Origin: Arcobacter sp.
GTDB taxonomy: Bacteria > Campylobacterota > Campylobacteria > Campylobacterales > Arcobacteraceae
Assembly: GCA_003252105.1 (NCBI GenBank)
Contig: QKDL01000071.1
Coordinates: 21,035 to 85,034, forward strand
DNA length: 64,000 nt
Reading direction: 5' to 3'
Shown piece after piece: positions 37,315 to 46,347 of this stretch. Made by a program: the position numbers and the translations under genes. A model generated the notes under the pieces. The model was not told the DNA's origin. It made no database searches and saw only the letters and a list, made by a program, of their open reading frames with translations. Within the stretch, counting starts at the first letter, position 1. Each line of letters begins with the position of its first letter.

Positions 37315-40300
37315 TTACTCTAAAGCTAAACTTTTAGCTTTTGCAAAATCTTTTTTCCCACTTCCAAGTTTTGGAATCTCTTCTACAATTTTATAAATAC
37401 TTGGAACCATAAGATTGCTATCAAAACTCTCTTTTATTTTTATTTTTAACTCTTCAAGTTCTTCAAAACTAATATGTGAAATTAGTAAAACAATCTTCTC
37501 TCCCTTTTTATCATCAGATATTGAAGTAGCCAAAAACTCAATCTCATCATTTGAAATTAACTTTTCAATCTTTTGTTCAATTGCCCCAAGACTTATCATC
37601 TCTCCACCAAGTTTTGCAAATCTTGAAAATCTATCAACAATTGTTAAAAAACCATCTTCATCAACTCTTCCCTTATCTCCTGTAATATAATAAGTTTCCC
37701 CATCTAAATCTATTAAAACCTCTTTTGTTTTAACCTCATCTTTTAAATAACCTTTCATAACTTGTACACCACAAACTAATATCATACCCTCTTGATTTGT
37801 TGGAAGCTCTTCAAAAGTTTGAGGATCAACAATTTTGAATTTTGTTCCAGGTATTGGCATACCAACCGTACCTATTTTTCCACCTATTTGAACTGCTCCA
37901 TCAGGAGCTTTAACTGTGGGAAGATTACAAGAAGCAACAGGAGTTGTCTCTGTAACTCCATAACCTTCTAAAATTTCTTTTTCAAATTTTTCGTTAAACT
38001 CTTCTCTAACTTTTGCTGATAATTTTTCAGCTCCAGCTACAACCAGCCTTAAAGATTCAAACATCTCTTTTTTTACTTTTGCATTTTTAGTATAAAGTCT
38101 AAAAAATGTAGAAGTTCCTAACATAATAGTTGCTTTATATTTTTCAACCAATTTACCAATCGCATATCCATCTGTAGGATCTGGATGAGAAACACATCTA
38201 ATCCCTTCAATTAAAGGTAAGAATAAAGTAACTACTGTACCAAAAGCATGGAAAAATGGTAAAGAACCTACAAATATATCTTCATCATTTACATTTATTA
38301 TTGCAGCTATTTGTTGGCAATTTCCAATAATATTTTTATGAGTTAACTCAATACCTTTTGGTACTCCCTCACTTCCACTACTAAACATAATAACGGCTGT
38401 AGAATTTTTGTCTTGTTTATTTATATGGATTTTTTTTAGAATAAAACTTGGTAAAGCTATAACACTTAAAAGCGTTACTAAACCTTTTGGTTTGCTAACT
38501 TCTTGTTTTAAATCCTCCACATATAATACTTCACATAAAGATAAAACTCCATCTATATCTATACCTTTTTCTTTTAACTTATCAATAAATTTTTTTGAAG
38601 CTATTATTGTTTCTATCTCTGCTTTTTCGACACTTCCTTTAAGTGATTCAATTGAAGCAGTAAAATTTAGATTTACAACAGTTTTTCCTAACATTAAAAC
38701 AGAATTATTAAAAAATGCTCCCCCTGCACTAGAAGGAAATAACAATCCTATATTTTGACCTTTTAGTTTAGACTTTAATATATTTTTAAAAATAATTGAA
38801 GCTGTTAAAAACTTATATCCAGATAACTCCACACCAGTAGTATCAGCAAATATCAAACTATTTTTTATCTGTTTTAATCTATCAAAAATAAGTTCAGGAA
38901 TTGTTGCAAGATTTTCAGTATGAGTTCTCCATGATATAGTTGACAAAGTTTTAACAGCTTTTTTTATTGATACTGCTGTTGCCTCTTCTTTTTTCATAGG
39001 CTTAGAAAATGAAACTGTTACACAATTGGTTCTTTTACTTCTTTTATATCTTTTATTTGCTCTACTAAACATAGATTCCCATAAACCTCTAATATAAAAA
39101 GCAATCACAGGTACATCTGTTTTTGTTTGTTGTAAAATCAATTCGAAGCCTCTTTTAAACTCCCCTAAATGACCATTTCTTGTAATACTTCCTTCAGGAA
39201 AAAGTACCACAACATTTCCCTCATCAAGCTCTTTTGCTATAATTTTAATAGTTTGTTTACTAGAAACATTTGATATAGGAATTGCTTTAAAAAGTTTTAA
39301 AATCCAGTTTAAATACCATTTTTCATATATAGGTTTATGCATTACAAATTTGATTTGTCTTGGACTACTCATCAATACAACAGCCCAATCTATCCATGAT
39401 ACATGATTTCCAAGAAGTAATACACCACCACTTGATGGAATATTTTTTATCCCTTCAACCTCCAAATCATATTTTAATCCAACTATACACTTCATAAAAA
39501 GTAAAATCAAAGATTGTGGTAATTCGTAAATAGTATATACCATCCCAACTATAGTTATAAATAGAATTAAATAGATAGTATTTAATGGATCAAGATTGTT
39601 CAAAGATACAAAAGTTGTGATACTAAGCATTAAAAACATAGCTAAAGAGTGAAACCAATTGTTCCCTGCTAAAATAGTCCCTAATGTTTTTTTCTTTGCA
39701 TTAAATTGTATTAATGCATTTAGAGGAACAACAAAAAGCCCACCAAAAATACCAAAAACTAAAAAAGTCAACCCTAAAAATAAAGCACTCGTCATTTGTG
39801 TTGAAAGATATATCATAACTGCCATACCAATTGCAGCAAAAGGGATAGTTCCAACCTCAATATAGTGTTTTGAAAGTTTTGAATAAATTATTGAACCAAT
39901 TGCTATACCAATACCTGAAGCAGCAATTACACCATTTATTACAAATACGTCAGTTATATTTAAATATTGCTTCGCAAAAGATGGAAATACAGCCATTAAA
40001 CCTTGTGATACACCCCAAAATACAGATAAACCAATCACCGATAAAAAGATAATATTATTTGCATAAATTGTTTGAATATTTTTCTTTAATAATTTTCCTT
40101 TTAATAACTCTTTTTTATCAAGCTCTAAACTATCGTTTCTTTTATATGTAGTTTTTAATTTTTTTAATATAAATAAAGATACAAGCATCTCTAAAAAAGC
40201 AACTGGTACAATATAAAAAGTTAAAGGTAAAATTGCATCTAGTAATTGTTCTTTGGTATTTAATAATTCTAAATTATTTGTATTATAAAAAGATTCAAAT

Positions 40301-40788
40301 ACAAAAGAACCACTTGCAATAGAGAATAAAATAGCTATTATAGAAACTGCTTGTAAACTTGAGTTCCCTTTTGCTAAATTGTTTTTGCCCCAAATATCCA
40401 TAATAATTCCAAATTTTGCTGGCGAATATATAGCACTTTGAACAGCAAGAAGCACAAGATTTGCCATAGCTAAATAGAAATTTCCACTAAGATATGAAAA
40501 TACCATTAACATAGATAAAGTAAAAGATGAGATTGCACCATATATCAAAATATCTTTTTTGTTATATTTATCTGATAAATAACCACTTAAAGTAAATAAA
40601 AGTAAAAAAGGAATTAATATCAAAGCATTTATTATAGATATCCAAACCACTTGTTCACTTCCATCAAACACTTTAAAAGCTATGTTTTGTAAAAGAACTT
40701 TATGGGCAACATCAACGATAACATTACAAAATACAACAAATAAAAATGAAATCTTTATTATCAATATATTTTCTCTTAAACTATTCAT
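37315..40788 (-). CDS. aas: fused LplT-like MFS - PlsC acyltransferase - AMP-dependent acyl-ACP synthetase
   Basis: MFS N-term; GNHVSWIDW and FPEGSITRNGHLGEFKRGF acyltransferase motifs; FSSGSEGVPKGIELTHKN and GYGVTETTPV adenylate-forming motifs. ATG at 40788 overlaps upstream TGA. Confidence 0.9.
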   Translation of the reverse strand: MNSLRENILIIKISFLFVVFCNVIVDVAHKVLLQNIAFKVFDGSEQVVWISIINALILIPFLLLFTLSGYLSDKYNKKDILIYGAISSFTLSMLMVFSYLSGNFYLAMANLVLLAVQSAIYSPAKFGIIMDIWGKNNLAKGNSSLQAVSIIAILFSIASGSFVFESFYNTNNLELLNTKEQLLDAILPLTFYIVPVAFLEMLVSLFILKKLKTTYKRNDSLELDKKELLKGKLLKKNIQTIYANNIIFLSVIGLSVFWGVSQGLMAVFPSFAKQYLNITDVFVINGVIAASGIGIAIGSIIYSKLSKHYIEVGTIPFAAIGMAVMIYLSTQMTSALFLGLTFLVFGIFGGLFVVPLNALIQFNAKKKTLGTILAGNNWFHSLAMFLMLSITTFVSLNNLDPLNTIYLILFITIVGMVYTIYELPQSLILLFMKCIVGLKYDLEVEGIKNIPSSGGVLLLGNHVSWIDWAVVLMSSPRQIKFVMHKPIYEKWYLNWILKLFKAIPISNVSSKQTIKIIAKELDEGNVVVLFPEGSITRNGHLGEFKRGFELILQQTKTDVPVIAFYIRGLWESMFSRANKRYKRSKRTNCVTVSFSKPMKKEEATAVSIKKAVKTLSTISWRTHTENLATIPELIFDRLKQIKNSLIFADTTGVELSGYKFLTASIIFKNILKSKLKGQNIGLLFPSSAGGAFFNNSVLMLGKTVVNLNFTASIESLKGSVEKAEIETIIASKKFIDKLKEKGIDIDGVLSLCEVLYVEDLKQEVSKPKGLVTLLSVIALPSFILKKIHINKQDKNSTAVIMFSSGSEGVPKGIELTHKNIIGNCQQIAAIINVNDEDIFVGSLPFFHAFGTVVTLFLPLIEGIRCVSHPDPTDGYAIGKLVEKYKATIMLGTSTFFRLYTKNAKVKKEMFESLRLVVAGAEKLSAKVREEFNEKFEKEILEGYGVTETTPVASCNLPTVKAPDGAVQIGGKIGTVGMPIPGTKFKIVDPQTFEELPTNQEGMILVCGVQVMKGYLKDEVKTKEVLIDLDGETYYITGDKGRVDEDGFLTIVDRFSRFAKLGGEMISLGAIEQKIEKLISNDEIEFLATSISDDKKGEKIVLLISHISFEELEELKIKIKESFDSNLMVPSIYKIVEEIPKLGSGKKDFAKAKSLALE

Positions 40789-41789
40789 GAGATATCCTTT
40801 ATAAGCTTTTGCCAATTAGTATATATACAAGAGTTCTCATCAAAATATTGATTAAAAAACTCAACATTTCTATCAAGTGGATTTTCTATTTTTTCCAACT
40901 CTCTTCTTTTTTTCAAACCTAAAGAGTGATGGGAAAAAAGAATAGAAAAAGGAACAGGAAAATCTGTACCGAACAACAGTTTATCATGAATTTGAGATTG
41001 ATTTTTTGCCAAATCCTCAATCACCTTTGCTCTTATATTTATAATCATTGCAGATAAATCTGCATATACATTTTCATGATTTTGTAAATACTCTATAGTT
41101 TTAAAATAATCCTCTCCAAATTTTGAAGTTTTAAAAGAGAAGTTATTTAAAAGTTTTTTGGGTCGTTTTTCCATAATAGAATTAACTCCAAAATGAGCCA
41201 ATACAACTTTACAGCCAACTTCAATGGCACTATTTGCAACTTCAATTTTTTCATACAGACTGTTTGATTCAACAGCATGTTCACTTCCTGTGTGGATAAT
41301 GATAGGTAAATCATAAGATTTAATCTTTTCAAAATATGGTATATATCTATCTTCATTTATATCTATATCCCAATAATTTTGTAAAAATTTTGCCCCTTTA
41401 AAACCTTTTTGAACATATTCATCAATTAAATCCAAAGCATCTTCTCTATTTGGATTTATTGAGAAAAAAGGGATAACCTCATTTGGGTATTTTTCATACT
41501 CTTTAAAAACATCCTCATTTGATGAACAAACTGTTTTATCCCTTGAAAGCTCTTTTCCATTTTTATCAATTTTTGCATCAACTGGTAAAATTACAGATTT
41601 TTTAACATATTTAGAAGTTTGTATATTGTTTATATAAGCCTCAACAAAAGCCTCATATTTTCTATCTAAAATCTCTTTTTTATCAACTCCTAATTTTTTT
41701 GCGAAAAATGAAATTGCAACTTTGTCATAAAGTCTTGAAAACTCAACATTTGGATTTAATAAATGTGTATGAAAATCTATAGTTTCCAT
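40785..41789 (-). CDS. amidohydrolase-family (TIM barrel) protein
   Basis: METIDFHTHLLNPN (HxH), PIIIHTGSEH, VVLAHFGVN, LLFGTDFPVPFS. Confidence 0.8.
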   Translation of the reverse strand: METIDFHTHLLNPNVEFSRLYDKVAISFFAKKLGVDKKEILDRKYEAFVEAYINNIQTSKYVKKSVILPVDAKIDKNGKELSRDKTVCSSNEDVFKEYEKYPNEVIPFFSINPNREDALDLIDEYVQKGFKGAKFLQNYWDIDINEDRYIPYFEKIKSYDLPIIIHTGSEHAVESNSLYEKIEVANSAIEVGCKVVLAHFGVNSIMEKRPKKLLNNFSFKTSKFGEDYFKTIEYLQNHENVYADLSAMIINIRAKVIEDLAKNQSQIHDKLLFGTDFPVPFSILFSHHSLGLKKRRELEKIENPLDRNVEFFNQYFDENSCIYTNWQKLIKDIS

Positions 41790-42427: not shown

Positions 42428-42441
42428 AATATACTCCTAAG

Positions 42442-42464
42442 AGTAAAGAGTTAAACTCTTTACT
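42442..42464. promoter_or_regulatory. palindromic operator O1 upstream of MerR-family gene
   Basis: AGTAAAGAGTT-A-AACTCTTTACT, perfect 11-bp arms. Confidence 0.7.
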
Positions 42465-42470
42465 TTTGGA

Positions 42471-42499
42471 ATTATAGATGATTTAAACTAAAAAGTCAA
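42471..42499 (-). promoter_or_regulatory. sigma70-type promoter of MerR-amidohydrolase-aas operon
   Basis: Minus strand TTGACT (42499-42494) - 17 nt - TATAAT (42476-42471). Confidence 0.7.
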
Positions 42500-42516
42500 G
42501 AGTACAACTCTTTACT
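42494..42516. promoter_or_regulatory. palindromic operator O2 overlapping -35
   Basis: Minus strand AGTAAAGAGTTGTACTCTTGACT, 20/23 identical to O1. Confidence 0.65.
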
Positions 42517-42540
42517 TTTTAGTTTGTAACTATTTTGTAA

Positions 42541-42768
42541 TTAAAAAAGTTCTTGTATCTCTTGGGCTGTTAAAACTTTCCCTGTTGATTTTACTACTCC
42601 ATTTATAACTAATCCTGGTGTACTCATAACTCCATATTCCATAATTTTTATGGGATCATCAACTTTTTCAACCTGTGCAAAAACCTTTGCATTTGCAATT
42701 GCTGTTTTTACATTGTTGGTTAAAGTTTCACATTTTGAACACCCTGTTCCTAAAATCTCAATTTTCAT
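42541..42768 (-). CDS. thioredoxin-like small redox protein (redox-active disulfide protein 2 type)
   Basis: MKIEILGTGCSKCETLTNNVKTAI CxxC; GVMSTPGLVINGVVKSTGKV. Confidence 0.88.
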   Translation of the reverse strand: MKIEILGTGCSKCETLTNNVKTAIANAKVFAQVEKVDDPIKIMEYGVMSTPGLVINGVVKSTGKVLTAQEIQELF

Positions 42769-42789
42769 TTATTTTCTCCTTATTTATAT

Positions 42790-43710
42790 TTATTCCCATT
42801 CAAGTTGATTGTAATATGTAGAGATATTTGCATTATTTAACTGCTCAAAATGGTTTAGATACTCAAATTTTTGAGTCTTTACATGTTTTTTTACCTCATA
42901 AATATCAATATCTTCATCATAAGCTTTTTTTACATCATCTCTTAATATTTTTAGATATTCCAAAGTTGCTTTATATGAGTTTTTATCAAACTTTTTTCCA
43001 TGTCCACCTAAAAAATACTTTGCATCTATTTTTGCCAAGTTTTCAATAGCTTCAATCCAGCCATTTATATTTGAGGTTTTTTTGTAGCTTAGAAGTCTTC
43101 CATTAAATACAATATTTCCTACAAATAAAAAACTATCATCTTTTGAATAGATTGCAATATCACTCTTCTCTTCACTTATTTTACTTGGTTTTATTATCTC
43201 AAGTGTTTTAGTTGAACCTTTTATTTTATATCCACCATCTACTAAATTATCTGCATAAATCACTTCTGTTTTTTCATAAACCTCTTTTGAAAGGATTTGT
43301 TTCATCCTTTCAAATTTACTTGGATTCTCTTTTATGTCATCATTTATAGTTTTATGTCCAACTATTTTTGCTCCATGCTCTTTAAAATATGAGGCACCTT
43401 GAATTCTATCATCATGGTAATTTGATAAAATCACATGAGAAACTTCAAGTTTTGGATACTCTTTTTTCATCAAAGCATAAAACTCTTTTGCAAAATTATA
43501 TGTTGGCCCAGCATCTAAAACAACTAAGCTATCTCCCATATTTACATAACACATATTTGAGACAAAACCATTATTGTTTTTCATTGGTGGATGAAAATCA
43601 CCAATAACACAACTAATATCTTTTGTAATTTTTATTGGTTTTAAATCATAAAAATCTGCAAAAATAGAGCTAGTTAACAATCCTACCAATAAAACAACTT
43701 TTTTAAACAT
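42790..43710 (-). CDS. exported MBL-fold hydrolase-like protein
   Basis: Signal peptide MFKKVVLLVGLLTSSIFA; GDSLVVLDAGPT; SNYHDDRIQGASYF; ATG 43710 with RBS preferred. Confidence 0.8.
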   Translation of the reverse strand: MFKKVVLLVGLLTSSIFADFYDLKPIKITKDISCVIGDFHPPMKNNNGFVSNMCYVNMGDSLVVLDAGPTYNFAKEFYALMKKEYPKLEVSHVILSNYHDDRIQGASYFKEHGAKIVGHKTINDDIKENPSKFERMKQILSKEVYEKTEVIYADNLVDGGYKIKGSTKTLEIIKPSKISEEKSDIAIYSKDDSFLFVGNIVFNGRLLSYKKTSNINGWIEAIENLAKIDAKYFLGGHGKKFDKNSYKATLEYLKILRDDVKKAYDEDIDIYEVKKHVKTQKFEYLNHFEQLNNANISTYYNQLEWE

Positions 43711-43720
43711 AAAACTCCTT

Positions 43721-44680
43721 TTATAAAATAGCATTAAAAATATATCCTATTAGAATAATACCACTTCCAACTATCATAAAAAATATAGCAATAAGTTTAG
43801 TATGTAACAATCTTTTTAAAATCATTGCTTCTGGTAATGACAAAGCAGTTACAGCCATCATAAAAGACAAGGCACTTCCAAGTAACATCCCTTTTGATGT
43901 TAAAACCTCAACAAGTGGCATAACTCCCGCGGCACTTGAATACATTGGGATTCCTAAAATAACTGCTAATGGTACAGTGTACCAAGCATCTCCACCTGTA
44001 TAACGAGCAATAAAATCTGTTGGAATATACCCATGGATAAAAGCACCAACTCCAACTCCTAGTATCACATATATATAGATTTTTTTGAAAATATCAAAAG
44101 TATAATCCCAAGCCTCTTTTACTCTTTGTTTACCACCTAAATCTATAGTTGGATTATCACAACACCCCTCCATAGGTTTAACCTCAAGCAAAATATACTT
44201 TTCCATATTTAATCTACCAATTATAAAACCACCAATAATAGCAACTAATAATCCAAAACCTATATATATAGCTGTAATCTTCCATCCAAAAAGTCCAAAT
44301 AACATTGCTATTGCTATTTCATTATTTAGTGGAGCCGAGATTAAAAAAGAGAAAGTCACTCCTAAAGGGATTCTTGCCTGTAAAAATCCCAAAAATAAAG
44401 GTATTGCACTACAAGTACAAAAAGGAGTTATAATCCCAAATATTGAAGCTAATATATTTCCTGTAAATTCTGATTTACCTTGTAAATATGCTCTTACTTT
44501 TTCAACATTAAACCAAGTTCTAAGATACGATACTAAAAAAATAATAGCAATAAGTAAAATAAATATTTTTACAGTATCATATATAAAAAAATGCAAAGCA
44601 CTAGTTAAATGAGATGTTTTATCCATCCCAAATAAAGTATAAATTAAAAAATCTACAAGTTTTTCCCAAGGTGTAAACAT
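43721..44680 (-). CDS. ArsP-type permease
   Basis: FGIITPFCTCSAIPLFLGFLQARIPLGVTFSFLISAPLNNE; PMYSSAAGVMPLVEVL. Confidence 0.85.
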   Translation of the reverse strand: MFTPWEKLVDFLIYTLFGMDKTSHLTSALHFFIYDTVKIFILLIAIIFLVSYLRTWFNVEKVRAYLQGKSEFTGNILASIFGIITPFCTCSAIPLFLGFLQARIPLGVTFSFLISAPLNNEIAIAMLFGLFGWKITAIYIGFGLLVAIIGGFIIGRLNMEKYILLEVKPMEGCCDNPTIDLGGKQRVKEAWDYTFDIFKKIYIYVILGVGVGAFIHGYIPTDFIARYTGGDAWYTVPLAVILGIPMYSSAAGVMPLVEVLTSKGMLLGSALSFMMAVTALSLPEAMILKRLLHTKLIAIFFMIVGSGIILIGYIFNAIL

Positions 44681-44681
44681 C

Positions 44682-45083
44682 TTATAATCCTAACACTTCC
44701 TTAATTTTTGGAAGTAAAATTGTTTCTATCTCTTCATATGTTTTCTCAAAAGCCTCAAATCCTTTTCCATCTGGATCTTCAAATCCCACATGAATTTTTT
44801 CCACAGGTTTTGGAAACATAGGGCAAGTTTCATTTGCATGGTCACATACAGTTACAACTAAATCATAGTCATTGTTTATAACAGTATCTAAAGTTTTTGA
44901 GTGATATTGCTCTTTCCAAATTCCTTTGTCTTCAAGCAGTTTTTTAGCATTTGGATTTACTCTTCCACTTGCTTTTACTCCACTACTATCTGCACTTATT
45001 CCATCAAGTTTAGCATTTATAAGTGCTTCTGCTATTATACTTCTACAACTATTTCCTGTACATAAAATCAATACTTTTTTCAT
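44682..45083 (-). CDS. arsC: thioredoxin-type arsenate reductase
   Basis: KVLILCTGNSCRSIIAEALI; VTVCDHANETCPMFP. Confidence 0.92.
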   Translation of the reverse strand: MKKVLILCTGNSCRSIIAEALINAKLDGISADSSGVKASGRVNPNAKKLLEDKGIWKEQYHSKTLDTVINNDYDLVVTVCDHANETCPMFPKPVEKIHVGFEDPDGKGFEAFEKTYEEIETILLPKIKEVLGL

Positions 45084-45093
45084 CTTTATCCTT

Positions 45094-46347
45094 TTAAATT
45101 AATGTTAATAAAACTATAAATAACACTGGTGGTGTTACTATAAGTCCAAATTTACTATATTGCCAAAATCCTATTTTTACACCTTTTTGTGATAAAACAT
45201 GAAGCCAAAGCAGAGTTGCCAAACTACCAAAGGGAGTCATCTTAGGTCCTAAGTTACATCCAATTATATTTGCATAAGCTAAAGCCTGATTTGGAATATC
45301 TTGCAATGCTATATCCATAACCATAACAGTTGGCATATTGTTCATAATTGCACTCAAAATTGCAGAGATAAACCCTGTTCCAAGTATGGCAACCATATCT
45401 CCTCTTTGAACTAAATCATTTAAAACAATTGTTAAATAATCTGTAAGCCCTGCATTTTTTAATCCATATACCACAATATAAAGTCCAATACTAAACCAAA
45501 CAACCTGCCAAGGTGCAGTTTTTATTGTAAGCCAAGCTTTTGCAGCTTTGTAGTAACTTGCGATGCTTAAGAAAATAAGTCCTCCACCAAGAGCAAAAAC
45601 TGATACAGGCAAATCAAATGAATCACCAATAAAATATGCAACTAAAAGTAAAGCAAGAAAAAACCAAGAAAATTTAAATAAAGTTTTGTTTTTCAAAACT
45701 TCATCTGGATTTTTAAGAAGTGTTATGTCAACCTCTTTTGGGATATCTTTTCTTAAAATTATCCATAAAACTAAAATAGAAACAATTGTACTTACAACAT
45801 AAGGGATAAACATATTTGATAAATATTCTAAAAACCCTATATTAAAATAGTTTGCTGTAACGATATTAGTCAAATTTGAAAATACAAAAGGTAAAGAGGC
45901 ACTATCACTTATAAATCCACCTGCAAGTAAAAATGCTAAAATTGTTTTTGCATTTAATTTCAAGATTCTCATTTTTGCTAATAAAATTGGAGTAAGAATA
46001 AGTGCTGCTCCATCATTTGCAAAAAGTGCTGATACAAATGAGCCTAAAATAAGAGCATATACAAACATCAAATGTCCATTGCCCTTTGATAGTTTTGCCA
46101 TCTTTATAGCACACCATTCAAAAAATCCAATCTCATCCAAAACCATAGAAAGGATAATAATACCAATAAAAGCCAAGGTTGCATCCCAAACAATATTTGA
46201 TACAACTAACACATCATCAAAACTTACTACCCCTAAAACTAAAGCAACTATTGCACCAATTACTGCTGTTGTACCTATTTGTAAGTTTTTGGGTTGCCAA
46301 ATCACAAAAATAAGAGTGACCAAAAATATACTACTTGCTAAAATCAT
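45094..46347 (-). CDS. arsB: arsenite efflux permease ArsB-type
   Basis: ArsB/NhaD-type TMs; LFANDGAALILTPIL; LSAIMNNMPTVMV; NLGPKMTPFGSLATLLW. Confidence 0.9.
   Translation of the reverse strand: MILASSIFLVTLIFVIWQPKNLQIGTTAVIGAIVALVLGVVSFDDVLVVSNIVWDATLAFIGIIILSMVLDEIGFFEWCAIKMAKLSKGNGHLMFVYALILGSFVSALFANDGAALILTPILLAKMRILKLNAKTILAFLLAGGFISDSASLPFVFSNLTNIVTANYFNIGFLEYLSNMFIPYVVSTIVSILVLWIILRKDIPKEVDITLLKNPDEVLKNKTLFKFSWFFLALLLVAYFIGDSFDLPVSVFALGGGLIFLSIASYYKAAKAWLTIKTAPWQVVWFSIGLYIVVYGLKNAGLTDYLTIVLNDLVQRGDMVAILGTGFISAILSAIMNNMPTVMVMDIALQDIPNQALAYANIIGCNLGPKMTPFGSLATLLWLHVLSQKGVKIGFWQYSKFGLIVTPPVLFIVLLTLI

Follow-up and report, generated by a model that had tools for sequence, protein, structure and literature searches.

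A MerR-type regulator gene, an amidohydrolase gene and aas follow one another, with hardly any gaps, on the minus strand of the window (the whole stretch of 64,000 nucleotides that was analysed), and two similar palindromes, O1 and O2, are placed at the promoter in front of them (Table 1).

Table 1. Features of the regulator-aas locus, in positions of the window
Feature	Position	Strand	Basis or remark
aas: MFS (LplT-like) + acyltransferase + acyl-ACP ligase fusion	37315..40815	-	NF006386 1478.6 bits; Pfam MFS_1, Acyltransferase, AMP-binding
Amidohydrolase	40785..41789	-	in 7/104 family genomes only
MerR-type regulator, 211 aa	41792..42427	-	Pfam MerR_1 9.6e-17; 26 orthologues in family
Shine-Dalgarno AGGAG of regulator gene	42434..42438	-	sequence
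Operator O1 (putative)	42442..42464	-	over inferred start site; upstream of 25/25 orthologues
-10 hexamer TATAAT	42471..42476	-	+1 about 42464, inferred from spacing
-35 hexamer TTGACT	42494..42499	-	inside O2
Operator O2 (putative)	42494..42516	-	overlaps -35; upstream of 18/25 orthologues; diverged counterpart in f4, f10

Just upstream, at 42541-46347 of the same strand, lies an arsenic-type cluster that comprises ArsB, an ArsC-like protein of phosphatase fold, an ArsP_1 permease, a protein of metallo-beta-lactamase fold and an ArsE-type thioredoxin. Because relatives carry different genes at this place, the ars-like genes are considered to lie outside the aas unit. No terminator-like site was found, so that readthrough from them into the aas operon is possible. 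Comparison with Rfam gave zero matches within the window.

The N-terminus of the regulator is a MerR winged helix-turn-helix (PF13411, 61.3 bits; cut-off 21.6), a domain matched by 11/11 diverse homologues, and the protein scores well under the cut-off of every curated MerR subfamily. Its structure model reached a pLDDT of 66 when built from 25 close orthologues and 79.5 from a more diverse alignment. The best full-length fold match of this predicted structure is SCO5550 (2dg6, TMq 0.51), and the C-terminal domain of Rv1828 matches as well; SCO5550 and Rv1828/FtsR resemble the regulator in being longer MerR proteins. However, the score against the NCBIfam FtsR model is 19.3 bits, far below its cut-off of 150 bits, and FtsR has ftsZ as its target and gene neighbours unlike those found here (PMC6683498). 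The regulator is of a known kind, and its group within that kind is apparently undescribed.

The promoter, TTGACT-17-TATAAT, scores 11/12. With +1 set 7 nt past the -10 hexamer, O1 would extend from about -2 to +26 and O2 from about -55 to -27, with the centre of O2 near -41. O1 is a perfect 23-bp dyad (11/11 pairs), and O2, which reads AGTAAAGAGTTGTACTCTTGACT on the minus strand, is an imperfect one (9/11 pairs) with the TTGACT of the -35 element inside it. The symmetry of both can be extended to 29 bp, as AAAAGTAAAGAGT-NNN-ACTCTTTACTTTT, covering 42439-42467 for O1 and 42491-42519 for O2. The original prediction had placed the two palindromes at these positions, with the -35 element in O2, a normal 17-bp spacer and both dyads outside it, and all of this is borne out by the sequence. 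Nearly all relatives have TTGACT in the right arm of O2 where symmetry would call for TTTACT, and therefore a working -35 element has been retained at the expense of the symmetry of the dyad.

Searching the window for the operator pattern with up to three mismatches gave four matches, namely the two sites on both strands, against a mean of 0.01 in shuffled sequence. Throughout the draft genome, O1 and O2 are the only matches with 0-2 mismatches; two further matches with three mismatches are both intragenic (in rho and in an 87-aa ORF), which is at the level of the control, as the reversed pattern gives one match. The draft genome scan thus revealed no regulon beyond the operon, and the wider regulon that had been suggested shrinks to a single locus.

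Within the home family, the regulator is present in 26 of 104 genomes and aas in 65, and all 26 carry the regulator gene ahead of aas, in the same orientation. Two genomes (G010 and G003) have four genes between regulator and aas, three of which resemble lipid-synthesis enzymes: a CDP-alcohol phosphatidyltransferase-like protein, an assignment just under the Pfam cut-off, a CTP transferase and an acyltransferase (L078 1257-3833, L079 1108-3682). The palindromes had been expected to be conserved upstream of orthologues, and they are: O1 was found upstream of all 25 regulator genes with a readable promoter and O2 upstream of 18 of them. In a few cases (the promoters of L022 and L023 in f1 and of L109, L112 and L121 in f4, and O1 in L025) the assignment was made without the automatic promoter finder, which had misplaced them. 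Averaged over columns, the information content is 1.75 bits for O2 and 1.70 bits for O1, against 0.66 bits just upstream, and both sites persist where the genes upstream of the promoter differ between relatives. In the genomes whose matches are listed, a site with 0-1 mismatch is confined to the regulator locus, and those without the regulator gene have no close site; the one exception, in G025, lies between unrelated genes. In G020, a pair of sites 52 bp apart lies near a contig end. As for the promoters with O1 alone, L030 clusters in the tree with the O2-bearing L020 and L023 (support 100/95), apart from L031-L035, so that more than one loss of O2 is probable.

A different palindrome, AGTCAAGATTTAAACTCTTGACT or similar, was noticed in L099 and L100 (G026 and G001), upstream of a conserved reading frame that starts about MSKLSRREFVYMMA and occurs in several family genomes. 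It is considered unrelated to the MerR-type regulator because G001 lacks the regulator.

The regularity of the site pair bears on how the two palindromes might cooperate. The original prediction suggested possible looping or cooperative binding. In a reading of this sort, dimers on O1 and O2 would repress through a loop or a phased contact, and the centres are indeed 52 bp apart, about five helical turns, in 17 of the 18 two-site promoters. However, the seven genomes without O2 keep the same 23 bp from the -10 hexamer to O1, so that the geometry of the promoter accounts for the constant spacing. Furthermore, the centres in G036 (L022) are 68 bp apart, about 6.5 turns, and only one site is present in the homologues of two other Campylobacterales families, f4 and f10. 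A loop or phased contact is accordingly left unsupported and is judged unlikely.

Another possibility is that the palindromes work as RNA: O1 would form a hairpin at the 5' end of the mRNA, and O2 would terminate transcription of the upstream ars-like genes. The transcript of O1 has a folding energy of -12 kcal/mol (z -3.0), and runs of A and T flank O2. Nevertheless, O1 and O2 are alike in sequence despite the location of O2 upstream of the start, O1 keeps its place relative to the -10 hexamer and not to the start codon, O2 is kept where the upstream genes differ, and no terminator-like site was found. The unpaired cells of O1 are without compensation, and O1 is therefore not maintained as an RNA stem. 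The hairpin was rejected because covariation is absent and the terminator because none was found; taken together, a function as RNA is highly improbable.

Searched with a profile, 397 genomes of the class yielded distant, full-length homologues of the regulator in f4 and f10 (E 1e-25 to 1e-31), each immediately before aas, and wider searches found homologues in f4 in 87/175 genomes and in f10 in 2/44. Among the best 30 f4 loci, a match to aas stands right behind the regulator in 29, that of L106 being short, and is missing in L122. In the f4 promoters, a dyad like AAAAGTGTAAAGTGTCACTTTACACTTT lies across the -35 element; 35 of 37 agree with the f4 consensus in at least 20 of its 29 positions, which is true of 0.07% of shuffled upstream regions. 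This dyad has the outer AAAAGT/ACTTTT in common with those of the home family, while the inner part has diverged, and its centre is 4 bp upstream of the -35 element instead of 6 bp. No second copy was seen at the start site of the f4 and f10 homologue promoters, which have the O2 equivalent alone.

Two further observations concern f4. A second MerR subfamily (L133-L137), about 30% identical and without adjacent aas, has a dyad like AACGTAAAGTTTAACTTAACG that overlaps its own -35 region. Moreover, in many leaders (L101-L107, L109, L110, L114-L117, L125 and L128) which lie between the -10 hexamer and the start codon, the first ~10 nt of the mRNA can pair with the start-codon region, for example GUCACUAGUU with GGACUAGUGAU and GUCAUAAAUC with GAUUUAUGAU, a fold that puts the Shine-Dalgarno sequence in a loop. 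The folding reaches z -2.0 to -4.8 in 8/8 leaders (arm-swap test p 0.02, fixed register) and possibly serves translational control of the regulator-aas mRNA.

The position of O2 also leaves room for activation, which was kept as a rival for this reason: a centre near -41 is one where activators can act too, and the regulator might activate from O2 in the class II manner and repress from O1 at high abundance or in a different ligand state. The poor -35 elements (TTTACA, TCTACA) and 18-bp spacers of many f4 loci would suit an activator, and the seven relatives without O2 could likewise be held against autorepression. There is also a precedent in GlnR, for which two sites flank the Paenibacillus nif promoter, the downstream one being repressing (PMC6191146). 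On the other hand, O2 of the home family holds a near-consensus -35 element, kept at the cost of symmetry, ahead of a 17-bp spacer, and the lineages that lost O2 retained the promoter and O1. Dual control is improbable.

The reading that best fits these data, with a probability of about 0.8, is that O1 and O2 are operators at which the MerR-type protein represses its own aas operon, the two acting additively and without a loop. An operator over the -35 element and start region of its own gene is the usual layout for repression by occlusion. The regulator bound at O2 would cover the -35 element and shut out sigma, and on O1 it would sit over the start site and prevent initiation or escape. Each operator would be tied to the promoter in its own right, which would make a DNA loop unnecessary. 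The promoter would transcribe regulator, amidohydrolase and aas together, and repression would last until a signal releases the protein. The dyads, their conservation, their exact placement on the promoter, the linkage to regulator and aas and the occurrence at a single locus can be read directly from the DNA; from them we infer binding by the regulator, the repressive sign of its action and a single transcript. Of the earlier interpretation, autorepression is thus well supported by comparative evidence, since the dyads are kept on the promoters of the regulator genes themselves and these genes are linked to aas; cooperation through a loop found no support, no wider regulon was found in the draft genome, and the aas operon had not been named as the target.

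The arrangement can be set beside known MerR-type systems. Classical MerR activators sit inside a spacer of 19-20 bp, from which they activate by distortion (PMC9909328). MerR, CueR, CadR and BmrR share with the regulator the N-terminal winged helix-turn-helix and a long palindromic site, but the spacer is 17 bp here and 17-18 bp in relatives, with the dyads outside it. HspR of H. pylori and Streptomyces is a MerR-family repressor of its own operon that has HAIR, an inverted repeat of the form CTTGAGT-N7-ACTCAAG, at the promoter (PMC6102357). It is similar in repressing its own operon from a promoter repeat, and H. pylori belongs to the same phylum as the host, but HspR has another operator sequence with one central repeat, an operator of more than 70 bp bound by several dimers, and heat-shock targets, whereas the dyad here is AGTAAAGAGT-N3-ACTCTTTACT and the linked gene is aas in place of chaperone genes. 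GlnR and TnrA of Bacillota are MerR-family proteins with sites outside the spacer as well; they differ in their TGTNAN7TNACA sites, their role in nitrogen control, their glnA neighbour and their several targets, as against another operator, other neighbours and one operon per genome here. Repressors of the MerR type that bind outside the spacer are already known, HspR (PMC6102357) and GlnR (PMC6191146) being examples.

LplT and Aas repair lysophospholipids and guard Gram-negative cells from phospholipase attack (PMC11416262; PMC8926400). The open-access papers that were searched include none on a MerR-type regulator of aas. The inducer may be a lysophospholipid, a fatty-acyl compound or a similar signal of membrane damage. 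As a more tentative suggestion, which is rather doubtful, the protein might belong to an undescribed MerR group of Campylobacterales that would sense lysophospholipid or fatty-acyl status and derepress the LplT-Aas fusion, as a sensor dedicated to phospholipase or envelope damage. The operator sequences make the idea of an aas repressor testable by reporter. If it is true, the signal that the cell reads would become directly accessible through a conserved repressor that stands next to aas and has this one target.
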